From NCBI GenBank assembly GCA_026390135.1, contig JAPLGN010000021.1, positions 1 through 48,825 of the forward strand: a stretch of 48,825 nucleotides of DNA. The letters are read 5' to 3'. The translations under genes were made by a program, and so were the position numbers. The notes beneath the pieces were generated by a model. It worked only from the letters and a program-made list of their open reading frames with translations. It was not told the DNA's origin and made no database searches. This document shows, piece by piece, positions 4,932 through 43,765 of the stretch. Source of the stretch: Campylobacterales bacterium. Lineage in GTDB: Bacteria > Campylobacterota > Campylobacteria > Campylobacterales > Sulfurimonadaceae. Position 1 is the first letter of the stretch; the number at the start of each line of letters is the position of its first letter.

Positions 4932-5315
4932 CTACTTCTTAACGCTATTTAAAATCCCCATAAACGTAGGAATATTTGCTCCCCCATCATAACGTTTCAA
5001 CTTCTCACCTTTGGCATTTAAAAAATGAAAAGTCGGTGTACCGATGTATCCAAGCTCTGAGGGGATTTTATCTTTGTGAACATCAAGATGGACAGGGACA
5101 AAATTTTTATTAATCGTATCCTCAATCATTTGCTCCTCAAAAACATTATTTTCCATATATTCACATGCTGGGCATCCCTCTTTGGAAAGCATTACCATCA
5201 CATTTTTTTTCTCTTTTGCAGCTTTTACTAATGCTGCGTCATACGATGGCGCCCAATTAATCTGTGCAGACGCGTACGATACTATGAGCGCCAATGATAC
5301 TATTATTTTATTCAC
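4932..5315 (-). CDS. exported thioredoxin-like protein (CPAC)
   Basis: A 127-residue thioredoxin-fold protein with an N-terminal signal peptide (residues 1-17, ending ASA) and the redox motif CPAC at Cys48-Cys51. A cis-proline segment (GTPTFHF) lies near 92-98. It probably acts in the periplasm as a thiol reductase fed by the adjacent DsbD. The start is GTG at 5315, preceded by AGGAGGAATAAA, and overlaps the dsbD stop (GTGA), so translation is coupled. Its exact substrate, such as cytochrome c apoproteins or sulfur-carrier thiols, cannot be told from sequence. Confidence 0.85.
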   Translation of the reverse strand: MNKIIVSLALIVSYASAQINWAPSYDAALVKAAKEKKNVMVMLSKEGCPACEYMENNVFEEQMIEDTINKNFVPVHLDVHKDKIPSELGYIGTPTFHFLNAKGEKLKRYDGGANIPTFMGILNSVKK

Positions 5316-7105
5316 TTTATTCCTCCTAAATGGGTTAGAAATTCTTTTGGTTCTTTAAAACCAACGATGCTAGCATCCTCGATCTTTTGACCTTTTTCAT
5401 CAAAAAACAAAATAGCCGGTGGTCCAAAAATTCCATATTTTTTGGTAATGGCTTTGGAGGCATCATCGTTGGCAGTTACATCCACTTGTACTAATACGTA
5501 CGCATCCATACTTTTCTTAACGGTTTCATCACTAAAGGTTTTTTCTTCAAACTCTTTGCATGCGGTACACCAGTCTGCATAGAAATCAACCATCACACGT
5601 TTGCCTTTATTTTCTGCCAAAATAGCATCAAGCTCTTCAATGGAAGTAATTTTTTCAAATGCTTTATGGGTATTAGCTGGGGCTAAAATTTCTTGTTTTA
5701 CACTCAAAAAAGGGTCAAGAGGGTGCAAAAGATTTTTAGCACCCGCCATTCCTCCTATAAGCAATGACATACCATACAGTAGTATCAGAAAACCAAGTGC
5801 TTTTACATTAGAACGTGAACTCCATGAAGGATGATCACCTAAAGGCTCGAGTGCTCCCGTATTAATCGCTACAAAAATCGCTAATCCGCCCCACAATAGT
5901 AAAGTCGTATTTTCATCCAAGACGCGACCCATCATCCAAATGGCGATGCCAAGAAGCATCACCCCGAAAATCGCTTTAATAACATCCATCCACATTCCGG
6001 GTTTAGGCATAAATTTACCTGAAGTTGTTCCGACAATAAGTAAAGGTACACCCATTCCGATACTAAGAGCGAATAAGGCTATACCGCCCAGTAATGCATC
6101 ACCTGTTTGACCGATATAGATCAGCGCCCCCGCAAGCGGTGCAGCCACACATGGTCCGACAATGAGTGCAGACAAAAATCCCATAATAGCGATGCCGATA
6201 ACCCCACTTTGCTGACCGCCGAGCTTGGAGAGTCGCGATTGAATAAAATTTGGAATTTGAAGTTCATACACATCAAACATGGATAACGATAAAAGGACAA
6301 AAACCAGTGCAAATACGGTAATAATCCACGGCGTTTGAAAGGCTGCTTGTAAATTTGCTCCAAACAATCCCGCCAAAACACCTGCGATCGTGTACGCTAC
6401 TGCCATCGACAAAACATAGACCAAGGAGAGTAAAAATGCTTTTTTTGCCCCCATTCCCTTACCCTGAGCAAGAATCACAGATGAAATAATAGGAATCATA
6501 GGAAATACACATGGGGTCAAAGAGAGAAGAAGACCAAAACCAAAGAAACTGATAATGATAAACCACAAACTTCCACCCTTTATGACGCTTGCAATTTGAT
6601 CGGTTTCGGATTCATTTTTAGGTGTCATAACCTCTTTGACAGGCTTTACCAGCGCTAATGCACTCAGATGAGCAGGATCTGCAAGACTAAGCTTATCTGC
6701 ATTAACCATGATTTCTAAAACAGTCTGTTGCGGCTCATAACACAGCCCTGCCAAAGAACAGCCTTGATAGGAGAGCTTAACCCGAACTTTTTGCTCACCA
6801 CTAAGTTTTTTATTCTCACTTAAATCAATATGAGTGACAGGATTGGTTTCATAAACCTTCTCCCCCTCATGATCTACTGTTTTAGTTACCGTATTTACTG
6901 TGCTAAAATTAATCCCATCATTTGAGTCAGCATCTTCAATTTTGAGTTTATCTTTGTAGAGATAAATCTGACTCCCCAACTCTATCTCAACCGCAATCGT
7001 ATCATCATCTACAGTTGTAATTTTAGGCTTGAATGCCTCTTCGGGTTGAAGAAAACTCACTCCAAAAAGAGCCATAGAAAAAAATATTAAAAACAAAAAA
7101 CGCAT
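5312..7105 (-). CDS. dsbD: thiol:disulfide interchange protein DsbD
   Basis: Carries electrons from cytoplasmic thioredoxin across the inner membrane to periplasmic thiol proteins. All three DsbD domains are present in 597 residues. A signal peptide is followed by the periplasmic alpha domain with Cys116 and Cys122. The membrane domain (about 180-455) has Cys199 in TPCVFPMIP and Cys319 in GPCVAAPLAG. A C-terminal thioredoxin domain carries DWCTACK (Cys513, Cys516). It sits between DsrE/rhodanese genes and an exported thioredoxin, and is probably the electron source for that set. AAAGG is placed 7 bases before the ATG. Confidence 0.95.
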   Translation of the reverse strand: MRFLFLIFFSMALFGVSFLQPEEAFKPKITTVDDDTIAVEIELGSQIYLYKDKLKIEDADSNDGINFSTVNTVTKTVDHEGEKVYETNPVTHIDLSENKKLSGEQKVRVKLSYQGCSLAGLCYEPQQTVLEIMVNADKLSLADPAHLSALALVKPVKEVMTPKNESETDQIASVIKGGSLWFIIISFFGFGLLLSLTPCVFPMIPIISSVILAQGKGMGAKKAFLLSLVYVLSMAVAYTIAGVLAGLFGANLQAAFQTPWIITVFALVFVLLSLSMFDVYELQIPNFIQSRLSKLGGQQSGVIGIAIMGFLSALIVGPCVAAPLAGALIYIGQTGDALLGGIALFALSIGMGVPLLIVGTTSGKFMPKPGMWMDVIKAIFGVMLLGIAIWMMGRVLDENTTLLLWGGLAIFVAINTGALEPLGDHPSWSSRSNVKALGFLILLYGMSLLIGGMAGAKNLLHPLDPFLSVKQEILAPANTHKAFEKITSIEELDAILAENKGKRVMVDFYADWCTACKEFEEKTFSDETVKKSMDAYVLVQVDVTANDDASKAITKKYGIFGPPAILFFDEKGQKIEDASIVGFKEPKEFLTHLGGIK

Positions 7106-7150: not shown

Positions 7151-7504
7151 TTAAAACGTTAGCACTTGATTACTTTCTATTACCCATTGCGTGAGCTGAT
7201 CCATAGTGGAGGAAATCTCTTCACTAAAATAAGGGGCATTTTTATACATTCCACACCGTGCATTACACGTCCCACAAGCACGAACACTCACACCATGCTC
7301 ATAGAGTTTTTTCACCATATCGTGTAAATCAAAATCGTACATCTCAGGCTTTACACAAATACTGCGAGCTAAATCGACCGCGTCATTCATCAAAAAAATA
7401 TTGACCTCTTCACCGTTTTTATGCAGATTTTTCGCTAAACGCAGTGCATTATAGGTAACATCACTTCCATTGTAAGGGTCGTGATTTAAAATCAAGGTAA
7501 TCAT
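7151..7504 (-). CDS. cytoplasmic DsrE-family sulfur-carrier-like protein
   Basis: A 117-residue DsrE/DsrF-fold protein without a signal peptide. The start MITLILNHDPYNGSD matches the family's first strand-loop. Conserved cysteines are Cys50, Cys77, Cys80 and Cys84 (ACGTCNARCG), where sulfur-relay proteins carry their persulfide. AAAGGA precedes the ATG. It lies 20 bases after the rhodanese gene and 45 bases before dsbD, so all are probably one transcript. It may accept sulfane sulfur in the cytoplasm; metal binding by the CxxCxxxC cluster is an alternative. Confidence 0.8.
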   Translation of the reverse strand: MITLILNHDPYNGSDVTYNALRLAKNLHKNGEEVNIFLMNDAVDLARSICVKPEMYDFDLHDMVKKLYEHGVSVRACGTCNARCGMYKNAPYFSEEISSTMDQLTQWVIESNQVLTF

Positions 7505-7524: not shown

Positions 7525-7989
7525 TTATTGCTCTTTGGTCAAAAGAGTAACACCTAGACCTGTCTCTACACCATACCCTTCTTGAGCCCAGCCTTTGAGT
7601 CCGCCTTTGAGAGAAGTTGCATTAACATAGCCCAAATTTTTAAGTGTTTGCGCTGCCAATGCACCTCGGCTTCCTCCGCGACAATAGGTCACAATAACTG
7701 CATTTTTGTCTTTAACTTTATTTAGAACATCAAATTCCAAATTTCCACGTGTGATTGCTAGGGTACTTGGTGCATAAATCTCACCTTCCGCACGCTGATT
7801 TTCCTCACGTACATCCAGAACCATCACCTTTTTTTGCTCATCAATCATCTTCTTTAACTCTTTTGGGGTCATTTCACCCACCTCTTGCTTCGCACTCTCG
7901 ATCAATTTTTCAGATTCAGCATGTCCTGCCATAAGGGACGATCCCACCAATAAACCTACAAGCATAAAAGCTACTTTCATATTTTTCAT
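7525..7989 (-). CDS. exported rhodanese-domain protein
   Basis: A single-domain sulfurtransferase of 154 residues with a signal peptide (about 1-21, cleavage near MAG). The rhodanese fold runs from about 39 to 140, with VLDVREENQ at 57-65 and the active-site loop CRGGSRG at 103-109; Cys103 would carry the persulfide. It probably moves sulfane sulfur in the periplasm. GGAG lies six bases upstream of the ATG. Its own promoter and an 18-bp near-palindrome lie just upstream (8013-8067), so it starts the transcript that includes DsrE, dsbD and the thioredoxin. Confidence 0.9.
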   Translation of the reverse strand: MKNMKVAFMLVGLLVGSSLMAGHAESEKLIESAKQEVGEMTPKELKKMIDEQKKVMVLDVREENQRAEGEIYAPSTLAITRGNLEFDVLNKVKDKNAVIVTYCRGGSRGALAAQTLKNLGYVNATSLKGGLKGWAQEGYGVETGLGVTLLTKEQ

Positions 7990-8012: not shown

Positions 8013-8030
8013 ATTAGCTAAATAACTAAT
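8013..8030. promoter_or_regulatory. putative ArsR-type operator, copy 1
   Basis: ATTAGCTAAATAACTAAT is an 18-bp near-palindrome (ATTAG.TA..TA.CTAAT on both strands). It shares ATTAGCTAA-N4-CTAAT with the copy at 8619-8636. It covers roughly +2 to +20 of the rhodanese promoter, a position suited to repression. Confidence 0.6.
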
Positions 8031-8038
8031 TAATGTGT

Positions 8039-8067
8039 ATAGTATAACAATAAAATTAATCTGTCAA
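8039..8067 (-). promoter_or_regulatory. promoter of the rhodanese-dsrE-dsbD operon
   Basis: TTGACA on the minus strand (8067 to 8062), a 17-base spacer, then TACTAT (8044 to 8039). TATACT at 8046 to 8041 with a 15-base spacer is an alternative -10. It is one of the few consensus -35 boxes in the window. Confidence 0.65.
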
Positions 8068-8091
8068 GGATTCATATCCCTATAATCGCGA

Positions 8092-8553
8092 TTAATCGAT
8101 TGATATGTACGCAAAATGATCATTTTGTTTATCGATTAATCCGATGGTTGAGTTGGGTGTTAACTTAACATAATCATACACATTGCTTTTATCAATCTTC
8201 AATGTTTTCATTGTTGCTTCACACATTAAAAATTCCACTTCGTAGGTATCCGCCATTGTAGCAATCCGCTTACTGAGTTGATCGTGAGCCAAAGCCAACT
8301 TTTGATCGTTTTTATAAGGCGAATTTTTTAAATCTTTTACAAAAAACTTATACGCATCCCCATGAATGACCACTGCAACCTCAAGTTTTTCCAATTTTCC
8401 TTCATAATGATTCTTATGAAATACAATTCCCTGTAACACTTTTTTTTCAAACGTTTCCAAATTTCCTGTTTTGAGATCGAAAACAACTTGCTTTACCCCT
8501 TCTTCTGCACATAAAACCGCTGAGAGAGCGAGAATAAGTAACCATTTTTTCAT
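8092..8553 (-). CDS. exported DsrE-like protein
   Basis: A 153-residue protein with a signal peptide (residues 1-16, ending LCAEE) and a DsrE-type domain: VVFDLKTGN at 23-31, VAVVIHGDAYKFFVKD at 59-74 and EFLMCEATMKTL at 107-118. Cys111 sits where the family's sulfur-carrying cysteine is expected. It is probably periplasmic and paired with the exported rhodanese gene downstream. AAAGGA precedes the ATG. A separate promoter and operator lie between it and the divergent ArsR gene. Cys15 could be read as a lipobox cysteine, but the surrounding AVLC is a poor match. Confidence 0.75.
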   Translation of the reverse strand: MKKWLLILALSAVLCAEEGVKQVVFDLKTGNLETFEKKVLQGIVFHKNHYEGKLEKLEVAVVIHGDAYKFFVKDLKNSPYKNDQKLALAHDQLSKRIATMADTYEVEFLMCEATMKTLKIDKSNVYDYVKLTPNSTIGLIDKQNDHFAYISID

Positions 8554-8587
8554 AGTATTCCTTTGTTATGATAATTTTACATTTGAT

Positions 8588-8593
8588 ATTATA
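8588..8593 (-). promoter_or_regulatory. -10 box of the exported DsrE gene
   Basis: TATAAT on the minus strand, 34 bases before the start at 8553. The operator copy at 8619-8636 lies just upstream of its expected -35 position. Confidence 0.45.
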
Positions 8594-8618
8594 ATCACCG
8601 AACGTAAAAATAATGTAA

Positions 8619-8636
8619 ATTAGCTAATTTCCTAAT
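8619..8636. promoter_or_regulatory. putative ArsR-type operator, copy 2
   Basis: ATTAGCTAATTTCCTAAT has half-sites ATTAG and CTAAT separated by 8 bases, with AATT at the centre. It shares the left nine and right five bases with copy 1. It lies in the divergent gap and overlaps the expected -35 region of the ArsR gene (the -10 is at 8650-8655), consistent with autoregulation. Confidence 0.6.
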
Positions 8637-8649
8637 AACTATCTTATGC

Positions 8650-8655
8650 TATAAT
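8650..8655 (+). promoter_or_regulatory. -10 box of the ArsR regulator gene
   Basis: TATAAT in TATGCTATAATTAAAC, 35 bases before the ATG at 8691. The putative operator lies 13 bases upstream of it. Confidence 0.6.
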
Positions 8656-8690: not shown

Positions 8691-9068
8691 ATGTTAGATA
8701 TGGAACAAAAATTAAAGATTTTCAAAGCCCTGAGTAATGAGACACGATTTTTGATTTTCAAAAATGTCTTTACTGGGGGATACACTTGTTCTCTGGATAA
8801 AAAACAAGCCGGTGTTGAAGTAAACCCAATCGCTACATGTGTCAGCACAGTGGCAGAGCATTTTAATTTTTCGCTTCCCACCATCTCTGCGCACATCAAA
8901 GAGCTAAAAGAGGCAAAAATAATCTCTGTAGAAAAAAAGGGAAATAAAGTTTACATTGAGCCTAATATCGAAACAATTCGGGAACTCTCTGCGTGTTTTC
9001 AGACATTGGTCACTAATTTTGACAATAATCGAGAACTTTTTTTTAACGATACCGTAGCGGTTAAATAA
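8691..9068 (+). CDS. ArsR/SmtB-family transcriptional regulator with cysteine-bearing insertion
   Basis: A 125-residue winged-helix repressor. The N-terminal helix (KALSNETRFLIF), recognition helix region (FSLPTISAHIKELKEAKII, 60-78) and wing (KKGNKVYIEP, 82-91) are clear. Cys33 falls near the ELCVCDL cysteine cluster of E. coli ArsR. A segment of about 16 residues containing Cys50 appears inserted before the recognition helix, and Cys102 is in the C-terminal helix. Such cysteines could sense metals, persulfide or disulfide stress. Genes on both sides handle thiols and sulfane sulfur, so a sulfur-responsive repressor is the likeliest reading. AGAAGG precedes the ATG. Confidence 0.85.
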   Translation: MLDMEQKLKIFKALSNETRFLIFKNVFTGGYTCSLDKKQAGVEVNPIATCVSTVAEHFNFSLPTISAHIKELKEAKIISVEKKGNKVYIEPNIETIRELSACFQTLVTNFDNNRELFFNDTVAVK

Positions 9069-9076
9069 GTAGGGCA

Positions 9077-10315
9077 ATGAAATATTTACTATCAACTCTC
9101 ATTTTTATCCTCCCTCTATTGTTGCAAGGAAAAACGCTTGATGATGCGTTTAGAAATGGGAAAGTAAGTGGAGACCTTCGCGCTTTTTGGTATAACGGAG
9201 ACCGTGACCTAAAAGTAGATCGCACCGCTTTAACCGTCGGTGGGATACTTAGCTATCAAACCGCACCCTTTTATGGACTCCAAGCCAACGCTTCTTTCTT
9301 TTCCAGTAACGGTACCACCTCACTCACTCAAATGCCCGAATCTGGACAAACCAGTAACCTCAAAAGTGATGGCAGTTCTATCAATGTTCTCGGTGAAGCT
9401 GCACTGTCGTATACCTACGATGATACGATAGTGAAATACGGACGGCAACGGCTCAATACACCTCTAACTAACGACTATTACAACCGTATGCTTCCAAACA
9501 GTTTCGAAGCACTCACCCTTGAAAACCGTTCAATAGCCGATGTGATACTAAAGGGTGCTTATATCACCAAATGGAAATACAAAGACTCTGACCTCTTTAT
9601 CTCACCAACCGAAAACTACGGATTTCATCGTGATATAGTGATGCTTGGTGGCGTGATAAAAAAAGGGGGAAGTACAAATGAGGTGTATGACTACTATGTC
9701 CCCGATGTGATGAATGCTCTGTATATTCAAAGTGAAACACCGAAAATTTTACCGGAAAGTTCCCCTTTCAATATTTCAGGTGCGGTACAGTTTTTAAAAG
9801 AAAATGGTGTGGGGGATGAACTAATCAAACTCTCTTCTACCTATCTAATCGGGACAAAATTAGGACTTCACTATAATAGTTGGAGCCTTACAGGGCTTTT
9901 CACCCAAATCGGTGACCAATCACTTGCAGGGACAGGAGGACGTTACGCCAAGATGGGATGGGGAGGATTTATCACCTATACCGATCTTCAAATCGACGGT
10001 GAAACAGAAAATGCGGGTGCAGTAGCGTATGGAGCTGTTGTAACACACCGTTTTGACAAAACACTCGAAGCATCGCTGAAATATCTGCGAATCGATCAAA
10101 GCGACACAAAACAAAGTGCTCCAAATTCTCTTACCGACAACCCACGCCCTGACTCAAATGAATACAATTTTGATACCACCTATCAACCGACCAAAGAGAT
10201 ACGATTACGATGCCGTTTTGCGTACATCGACTACAATCCTGACAGCACAAATTTATATAAAAATCGTGCGTATGACGAGTTTAACACCCGTATAATTGCC
10301 GATTATATGTTTTAA
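9077..10315 (+). CDS. OprD-type outer-membrane porin
   Basis: A 412-residue outer-membrane protein with a signal peptide (1-18) and alternating beta-strand pattern throughout, ending in phenylalanine (ADYMF), the outer-membrane assembly signature. The strand pattern VSGDLRAFWYNGD, the YGRQRLNTPLTNDYYNRMLPN region (about 136-156) and the overall length resemble the OprD/OprD-like porins of Campylobacterota. The substrate is unknown. It follows the ArsR gene by 8 bases and is likely under the same promoter, suggesting regulated uptake or export of a small solute. Confidence 0.8.
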   Translation: MKYLLSTLIFILPLLLQGKTLDDAFRNGKVSGDLRAFWYNGDRDLKVDRTALTVGGILSYQTAPFYGLQANASFFSSNGTTSLTQMPESGQTSNLKSDGSSINVLGEAALSYTYDDTIVKYGRQRLNTPLTNDYYNRMLPNSFEALTLENRSIADVILKGAYITKWKYKDSDLFISPTENYGFHRDIVMLGGVIKKGGSTNEVYDYYVPDVMNALYIQSETPKILPESSPFNISGAVQFLKENGVGDELIKLSSTYLIGTKLGLHYNSWSLTGLFTQIGDQSLAGTGGRYAKMGWGGFITYTDLQIDGETENAGAVAYGAVVTHRFDKTLEASLKYLRIDQSDTKQSAPNSLTDNPRPDSNEYNFDTTYQPTKEIRLRCRFAYIDYNPDSTNLYKNRAYDEFNTRIIADYMF

Positions 10316-43555: not shown

Positions 43556-43765
43556 ATGGATGATTATAAACTTAAACTGATTCTTGCAGGACTTGGCGGA
43601 TTAGTTTTTGGTCTAATCTTTATATTATTGGCTTTTGTTCTCCCTCTTAAAGATAATAGTGTCAATACAGAGTTGCAAGCTAAACATACTCTCGAAAAGA
43701 TCTCAAAAGGGATTAAAGAAGGTCAGCTTCGACCTCCCCCAAAAGACCAAAGCAATCATGAATGA
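43556..43765 (+). CDS. small membrane protein of unknown function
   Basis: A 69-residue single-span membrane protein: helix about 8-31, then a periplasmic or cytoplasmic tail rich in charged residues and prolines (RPPPKDQ). No family recognised. GGGAG lies well before the ATG. Its stop overlaps the start of the FliK-like gene (ATGA), so it belongs to the flagellar export string. Confidence 0.7.
   Translation: MDDYKLKLILAGLGGLVFGLIFILLAFVLPLKDNSVNTELQAKHTLEKISKGIKEGQLRPPPKDQSNHE

Follow-up and report, generated by a model that had tools for sequence, protein, structure and literature searches.

Our analysis concerns a 48,825-nucleotide stretch of DNA from a Campylobacterales bacterium (assembly GCA_026390135.1, contig JAPLGN010000021.1), referred to here as the window, in which two copies of an 18-bp near-palindrome lie on either side of a gene for an exported-looking DsrE-family protein and are predicted to be operators of the ArsR-type regulator encoded beside them. 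The genome belongs to Sulfuricurvum, the label carried by 22 of the 32 named loci whose regulator matches at 85-100% identity. Along the window the thioredoxin-like, DsbD, DsrE and rhodanese genes are read from the minus strand, as is the exported DsrE gene that follows them, and the ArsR-fold gene and a porin gene are then read from the plus strand. The features are as follows.

4932-5315, minus strand: thioredoxin-like protein
5312-7105, minus strand: DsbD thiol:disulfide interchange protein
7151-7504, minus strand: DsrE/TusD-like protein, taken as cytosolic because its N-terminus is not signal-like
7525-7989, minus strand: rhodanese, N-terminus signal-like by eye
8013-8030, no strand: operator 1, predicted, at the transcription start of the rhodanese operon (exact motif, promoter scan)
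8039-8067, minus strand: predicted rhodanese promoter, TTGACA-17-TACTAT (promoter scan)
8092-8553, minus strand: "exported DsrE", a DsrE-family protein whose N-terminus looks signal-like by eye
8591-8619, minus strand: predicted exported-DsrE promoter, TTTACA-17-GATTAT (promoter scan; weak, 9 of 12)
8619-8636, no strand: operator 2, predicted, over the expected arsR -35 and abutting the exported-DsrE -35 (exact motif, promoter scan)
8650-8655, plus strand: predicted arsR -10, TATAAT (read from the sequence; unlisted by the promoter scan)
8691-9068, plus strand: arsR, ArsR-fold winged-helix repressor of 125 residues with Cys33, Cys50 and Cys102 (profiles, predicted structure)
9077-10315, plus strand: OprD/Opr-type porin, 8 bp past arsR

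Operator 1, ATTAGCTAAATAACTAAT, occupies 8013-8030 and operator 2, ATTAGCTAATTTCCTAAT, occupies 8619-8636. The motif they share, ATTAGCTAANNNNCTAAT, has exactly these two copies in the window, as the initial annotation had reported, and it occurred twice in none of 100 dinucleotide-preserving shuffles of the window (mean 0.00). The looser dyad ATTAG-N8-CTAAT is found three times against an expectation of 0.08; the inner bases of the third exact copy, at 43600-43617, are unlike those of the operator and this copy is probably a chance occurrence. The two sites are thus beyond chance locally, and the loose motif is uninformative across the genome.

Both sites coincide with predicted promoter elements. 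On the minus strand, TTGACA-17-TACTAT (8067 to 8039) places the start of the rhodanese transcript at about 8032, adjoining operator 1. On the plus strand, the TATAAT at 8650-8655 implies an arsR -35 beneath operator 2 and a transcription start at about 8662; the TTTACA-17-GATTAT of the exported DsrE gene (8619 to 8591, minus strand) abuts the same operator. The placements first claimed for the two sites, at the rhodanese start and over the arsR -35 beside the exported-DsrE promoter, agree with this map, which is made of consensus matches; the promoter scan gave 8 promoter-like sites against 4.7 in shuffles. The porin gene is probably carried on the same transcript as arsR, and the Opr/OprD-type porin itself is possibly the outer-membrane port of the system.

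Conservation and position upstream of related regulators carry most of the argument for an operator. A regulator-alignment scan of genome contigs gave 85 loci, of which the best 80 (58-100% identity; labelled Sulfuricurvum, Sulfurimonas, Sulfurovum, Arcobacter, Sulfurospirillum and other Campylobacterota) were compared, with L178, for which 45 bp of upstream sequence was present, left out of the site counts. In 67 of 79 loci the 170 bp ahead of the regulator start contain an exact TTAG-N8-CTAA, so the conservation on which the initial annotation had made its case depend extends over several genera of the phylum. The enrichment is strongly local: across all 80 loci, L178 included, the 11,895 bp nearest the start (at most 150 bp from it in each locus) hold 70 exact sites and the remaining 750,507 bp hold 37, and a scrambled control motif gave 1 near the start and 24 in the rest. 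Because sites were selected by their TTAG and CTAA columns, conservation there is built in; the eight inner columns played no part in the selection, and these define two forms of the site: ATTAGCTAAtTngCTAAt in Sulfuricurvum (5 of the 8 columns at 1.8 bits or more, 29 loci) and aTTAGGCATTTAaCTAAATA in the Sulfurimonas/Sulfurovum-type group (7 of 8 at 1.4 bits or more, 39 loci). In the latter group the site begins at -64 to -66 in 37 of the 39 loci. By a loose criterion applied without a control, 41 of 74 loci have a second overlapping or inverted copy, and two dimers may therefore bind.

The site also moves with the promoter when the genes are rearranged. Where the regulator is directly divergent from a rhodanese or DsrE gene, a single operator lies by the rhodanese -10 and over the regulator -35, and in most such loci shown the rhodanese TTGACA, on the other strand, falls within TGTCAAGGA, a block ending a few bases before the regulator ATG. 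In the window, where the exported DsrE gene separates regulator from rhodanese, there is an operator for each. Across the 11 loci in which the rhodanese start is at least 57 bp from the exported-DsrE stop (the window included, with L105 and L106 as its close kin), an exact rhodanese-side site is present in all, against neither of two loci in which the genes nearly abut (gaps of 13 and 27 bp); its absence from those two is expected because the genes would be co-transcribed. A block similar to the rhodanese promoter of the window serves as the shared divergent promoter in several loci lacking exported DsrE. Compared with the regulator promoter of L121, the rhodanese side of the window is identical at 34 of 38 bases; the TGTCAAGGA block is among them, but the ATG has no counterpart. 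This similarity exceeded all of 200 shuffles in 6 of 10 comparisons (L107, L118, L120, L121, L131, L152) and did not exceed all of them, at the same small number of shuffles, in the other 4 (L119, L127, L129, L138). The resemblance suggests that an older promoter, once shared, was split in two by the arrival of the exported DsrE gene. Elsewhere among the rearranged loci, sites of this kind stand before rhodanese, DsrE, DUF302, thioredoxin-like or ArsM-like genes, or sister regulators at 54-60% identity, and by our own tally 29 of the 35 outlying sites listed lie ahead of genes of these kinds.

Some of these loci deserve mention in their own right. Sister regulators with a related operator at their own promoter occur in L112, L115, L148, L156 and L158; an ArsM-like double methyltransferase gene is directly divergent from the sister regulator in L112 and L115, and in L148 and L158 about 1.1-1.7 kb and a rhodanese-like gene separate the two. 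In L121 and L130 a small methyltransferase gene sits within the DsrE operon, with a weak match, below cut-off, to the DVU_1556 family.

At the level of whole genomes, the site and the regulator occur together. The regulator is present at 88-100% identity in 26 of 37 genomes of the genus, the window's own included (G060-G063 lie outside this count). With at most one mismatch, the 16-mer core of the site is present in 24 of the 26 genomes that encode the regulator and in 3 of the 11 that do not (p = 0.00016); the reversed control pattern is present in 18 of 26 and 11 of 11, respectively (p = 0.08). Single one-mismatch places fall inside or next to genes that do not resemble those of the cluster in G063 and in three genomes that lack the regulator (G008, G023, G025); a wider regulon built on them was considered and rejected, and we take these places as chance. 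The sole such place in G005 is a second rhodanese locus with a cut regulator. There (L098, 5034-5787, contig C2) an operator-like site stands beside rhodanese, the local regulator is cut to 65 residues and a full regulator is encoded on another contig, an arrangement that suggests control in trans. The 26 further genomes of Sulfurimonas/Sulfurovum type, reached through 26 of the 80 loci, carry the Sulfurimonas form at no or one mismatch in 25 cases and exactly once in 24, the exceptions being G080 with two sites and G064 with a two-mismatch match only; at three mismatches the form is found 77 times against 33 for the control. In the window's own genome (1.87 Mb in 56 contigs, 82% complete), the best match to the refined 16-mer TTAGCTAAWTAGCTAA is operator 1 (one mismatch), and at two mismatches there are three places, namely operator 2, C3:70782 and C10:132175.

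Taken together, the comparisons of DNA sequence demonstrate a site that is conserved at a nearly fixed place upstream of the regulator across genera, of which a near-perfect copy is usually found only there, and which follows the promoter through rearrangements. The upstream conservation, the single site in 24 of 26 genomes and the co-occurrence with the regulator all favor the original proposal that one ArsR-type regulator governs both arms. We consider it very probable that the site is the operator of the linked regulator; the repressor would probably be autoregulated and nearly locus-specific, and its operators real and functional.

The predicted protein is in keeping with this role. Its AlphaFold2 model (predicted local distance difference test score, pLDDT, 87.2) is an ArsR winged helix, with helices at 4-14, 17-29, 46-55 and 62-74, a wing at 78-91 and a last helix at 93-118, and its structural neighbors are mainly of the ArsR family, among them in the PDB the As(III)-responsive ArsR, SrnR, CzrA, HlyU, SqrR and BigR. 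Model and neighbors place it in the ArsR/SmtB superfamily fold, and it falls just below the cut-offs of two ArsR profiles (NF033788, 51.1 against 55; PF01022, 21.9 against 22); the modeled fold gives no clue to the ligand. All 80 loci have Cys33 and Cys50, and 79 have Cys102, with tyrosine in L171 and a two-residue shift in L177. In the model Cys33 lies in a strand after α2 and before an 11-residue loop, Cys50 in α3 and Cys102 in α5. Five distant paralogues (25-34% identity) keep the α3 cysteine and lack Cys33; by our reading they have no cysteine at the place of Cys102, though in four of them another position in the region of the last helix is a cysteine. Near-invariant in the group and incomplete in the paralogues, the three residues point to a group-specific cysteine set under strong constraint. 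Behind one distant ArsR paralogue, which has the α3 cysteine and one other, TTAGCTAATTAACTAA lies about 60 bp upstream of a gene for a 413-residue protein (L099, 5090).

What the protein might sense is suggested by its neighbors. Within 4.2 kb of the regulator the 80 loci contain rhodanese (61), small DsrE (47), exported DsrE (21), thioredoxin-like (20), DsbD (17) and DUF302 (15) genes, counts that are lower bounds, as crude calling of open reading frames left the regulator itself unlabelled in 8 of the 80, and that rest on the best BLAST hit to window proteins, the thioredoxin matches at 24-40% identity being loose. The rhodanese and DsrE content favors sulfane sulfur as the effector, which we regard as somewhat better supported than not. 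In Sulfurovum indicum, two rhodanese-like genes, possibly those of the cluster, are reported as up 2.77-2.82-fold on S0 in the available text of PMC10045233; the portion of PMC12998232 available contains nothing on the regulation of such genes.

In the mechanism we propose, a repressor dimer on operator 1 would sit at the transcription start of the rhodanese-DsrE-(DsbD-thioredoxin) operon, and a dimer on operator 2 would cover the -35 of its own gene, probably transcribed with the porin, and lie beside the exported-DsrE -35; the two arms and the repressor gene would thereby be shut off at once. With less certainty, persulfide or polysulfide might modify some of Cys33, Cys50 and Cys102 and release the protein, which would turn on the repressor gene and, with it, a sulfur-carrier system of periplasm and cytoplasm. 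As a whole, this reading of the two sites as operators of an autoregulated repressor that switches both arms and is released by sulfane sulfur seems to us likely.

Several observations weigh against it. In the window's own genome the loose ATTAG-N8-CTAAT is not enriched (5 places against 7 for the backward pattern), and TTAGCTAAWTAGCTAA with up to three mismatches was found 28 and 18 times against 50 and 55 for the reversed control. Over both strands of the 41 genomes of the genus, the 16-mer at no more than one mismatch gave 69 matches against 66 for its reversed control. Allowing one mismatch, the site is present upstream of the regulator in 76 of the 79 loci, but where DNA is AT-rich a one-mismatch match to 8 bases is weak evidence alone, and some of these matches lie off the usual place (L176, L179, L184). 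In three of the 79 (L111, L143, L159) the best site near the regulator has two mismatches, L111 having two exact sites that adjoin rhodanese instead. The loci share descent and their counts are not independent. An ArsM-like methyltransferase gene lies near the regulator in 16 of the 80 loci. SqrR-type sensors have one cysteine of their pair in α2 and the other in α5; here, in an alignment of the window protein with 49 of the 80 (n = 50), the residue at the position of the YgaV α2 cysteine is an invariant Lys24 (50 of 50; 18% identity to E. coli YgaV, loose in α5, and 27% to E. coli ArsR), and the cysteines are at 33, 50 and 102. The initial annotation had held that a motif at background frequency genome-wide would speak against it, and the raw counts are indeed at or below those of reversed controls in the own genome and the genus, even as the upstream conservation it called for was found. 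We discarded genome-wide motif counting as evidence, judging the raw count too blunt because it ignores position; the operator reading rests instead on position, conservation and co-occurrence.

The alternative that survives best keeps the same regulator and operators and assigns the effector to As(III), Sb(III), Cd(II) or a selenium or tellurium species acting through Cys33, Cys50 and Cys102, with the cluster serving detoxification. The ArsM-like gene, whose product matches arsenite methyltransferase models below their cut-offs, lends this some weight, but rhodanese and small DsrE are the commoner neighbors and the second cysteine of the CxC arsenite site is replaced by Ser52. Moreover, ACR3 was found in none of the 41 genomes of the genus, and ArsB, found in 38 of them (not the window's own), is also present in 10 of the 11 that lack the regulator. 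Where ArsB shares a contig with the regulator (G020, G029, G031) it is some 300 kb or more away, and otherwise it is on a different contig, though in these fragmented assemblies contig breaks could hide a linkage. A canonical arsenic regulator is weakened as a candidate by the missing ACR3 and by an ArsB without visible linkage, and we regard a metalloid effector as unlikely.

Far less probable is that the sites belong to another regulator, such as a distant ArsR paralogue or an unlinked factor, with the linked ArsR merely one of its targets. Such paralogues (25-35% identity) do exist in some genomes of the genus, one of them near a TTAGCTAATTAACTAA site in G016, but the site tracks the linked regulator (24 of 26 genomes against 3 of 11) and operators related to this one stand at the promoters of the sister regulators themselves. 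Chance AT-rich palindromes, or promoter sequence kept for other reasons, would fit the background-level raw counts but hardly the near-fixed position, the conservation across genera, the tie of the second copy to a second promoter and the window shuffles, and we give this explanation almost no credence.

Having weighed these alternatives, we return to the autoregulated repressor responding to sulfane sulfur and compare it with known systems. SqrR, BigR, SoxR, sHdrR, YgaV and HlyU are described, in the available text of PMC12423496, PMC10451225 and PMC10509353, as sulfane-sulfur ArsR regulators in which two shared cysteines are bridged via sulfur; PMC10509353 in addition presents ArsR sequence clusters. 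The window regulator resembles them in its ArsR fold, and the features given for the group in the accessible parts of PMC12423496 and PMC10451225, mostly repressors with rhodanese or sulfur-transfer targets that are often adjacent, match the arrangement proposed here. Unlike them, it lacks the α2 and α5 cysteine pair of the SqrR/BigR/SoxR group and scores 15 bits against a cut-off of 155 on the BigR profile NF040642; the position of the cysteines rules out an SqrR-type sensor by homology. With the As(III)-responsive ArsR of E. coli (6j05, 6j0e) it shares the fold and, in Cys50, the first cysteine of the α3 motif, but Cys50-Val-Ser52 is not a CxC, linkage to arsB or acr3 was not seen in the fragmented genomes of the genus, and the usual divergent partner is rhodanese or DsrE. 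TsoR, named with the Tso selenoproteins, a set that includes a rhodanese/DsbD-like protein, offers a partial profile match over residues 49-114 (NF045707), at 35.1 bits against a cut-off of 115. No description of a regulator or operator of the window type was found in the open-access literature searched, and the protein is apparently an undescribed variant of the ArsR repressor.

These comparisons lead us to a broader idea that we hold tentatively and with slightly more doubt than belief, namely that an ArsR-fold sensor of sulfane sulfur may have arisen apart from the SqrR/BigR line, with a new cysteine set, a near single-site regulon and a rhodanese/DsrE relay from periplasm to cytoplasm, and may be widespread in sulfur-oxidising Campylobacterota. 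According to the text available of PMC10451225, SoxR is confined to Proteobacteria and many Campylobacterota are established chemolithoautotrophic sulfur oxidisers. If true, the window regulator would be the counterpart of SoxR and SqrR in a phylum for which the literature searched described no such regulator. Its near-unique operator offers a testable entry through an 18-bp probe, a 125-residue protein and three cysteines, and would allow a test of whether the sensing of sulfane sulfur has more than one origin among ArsR-fold proteins.
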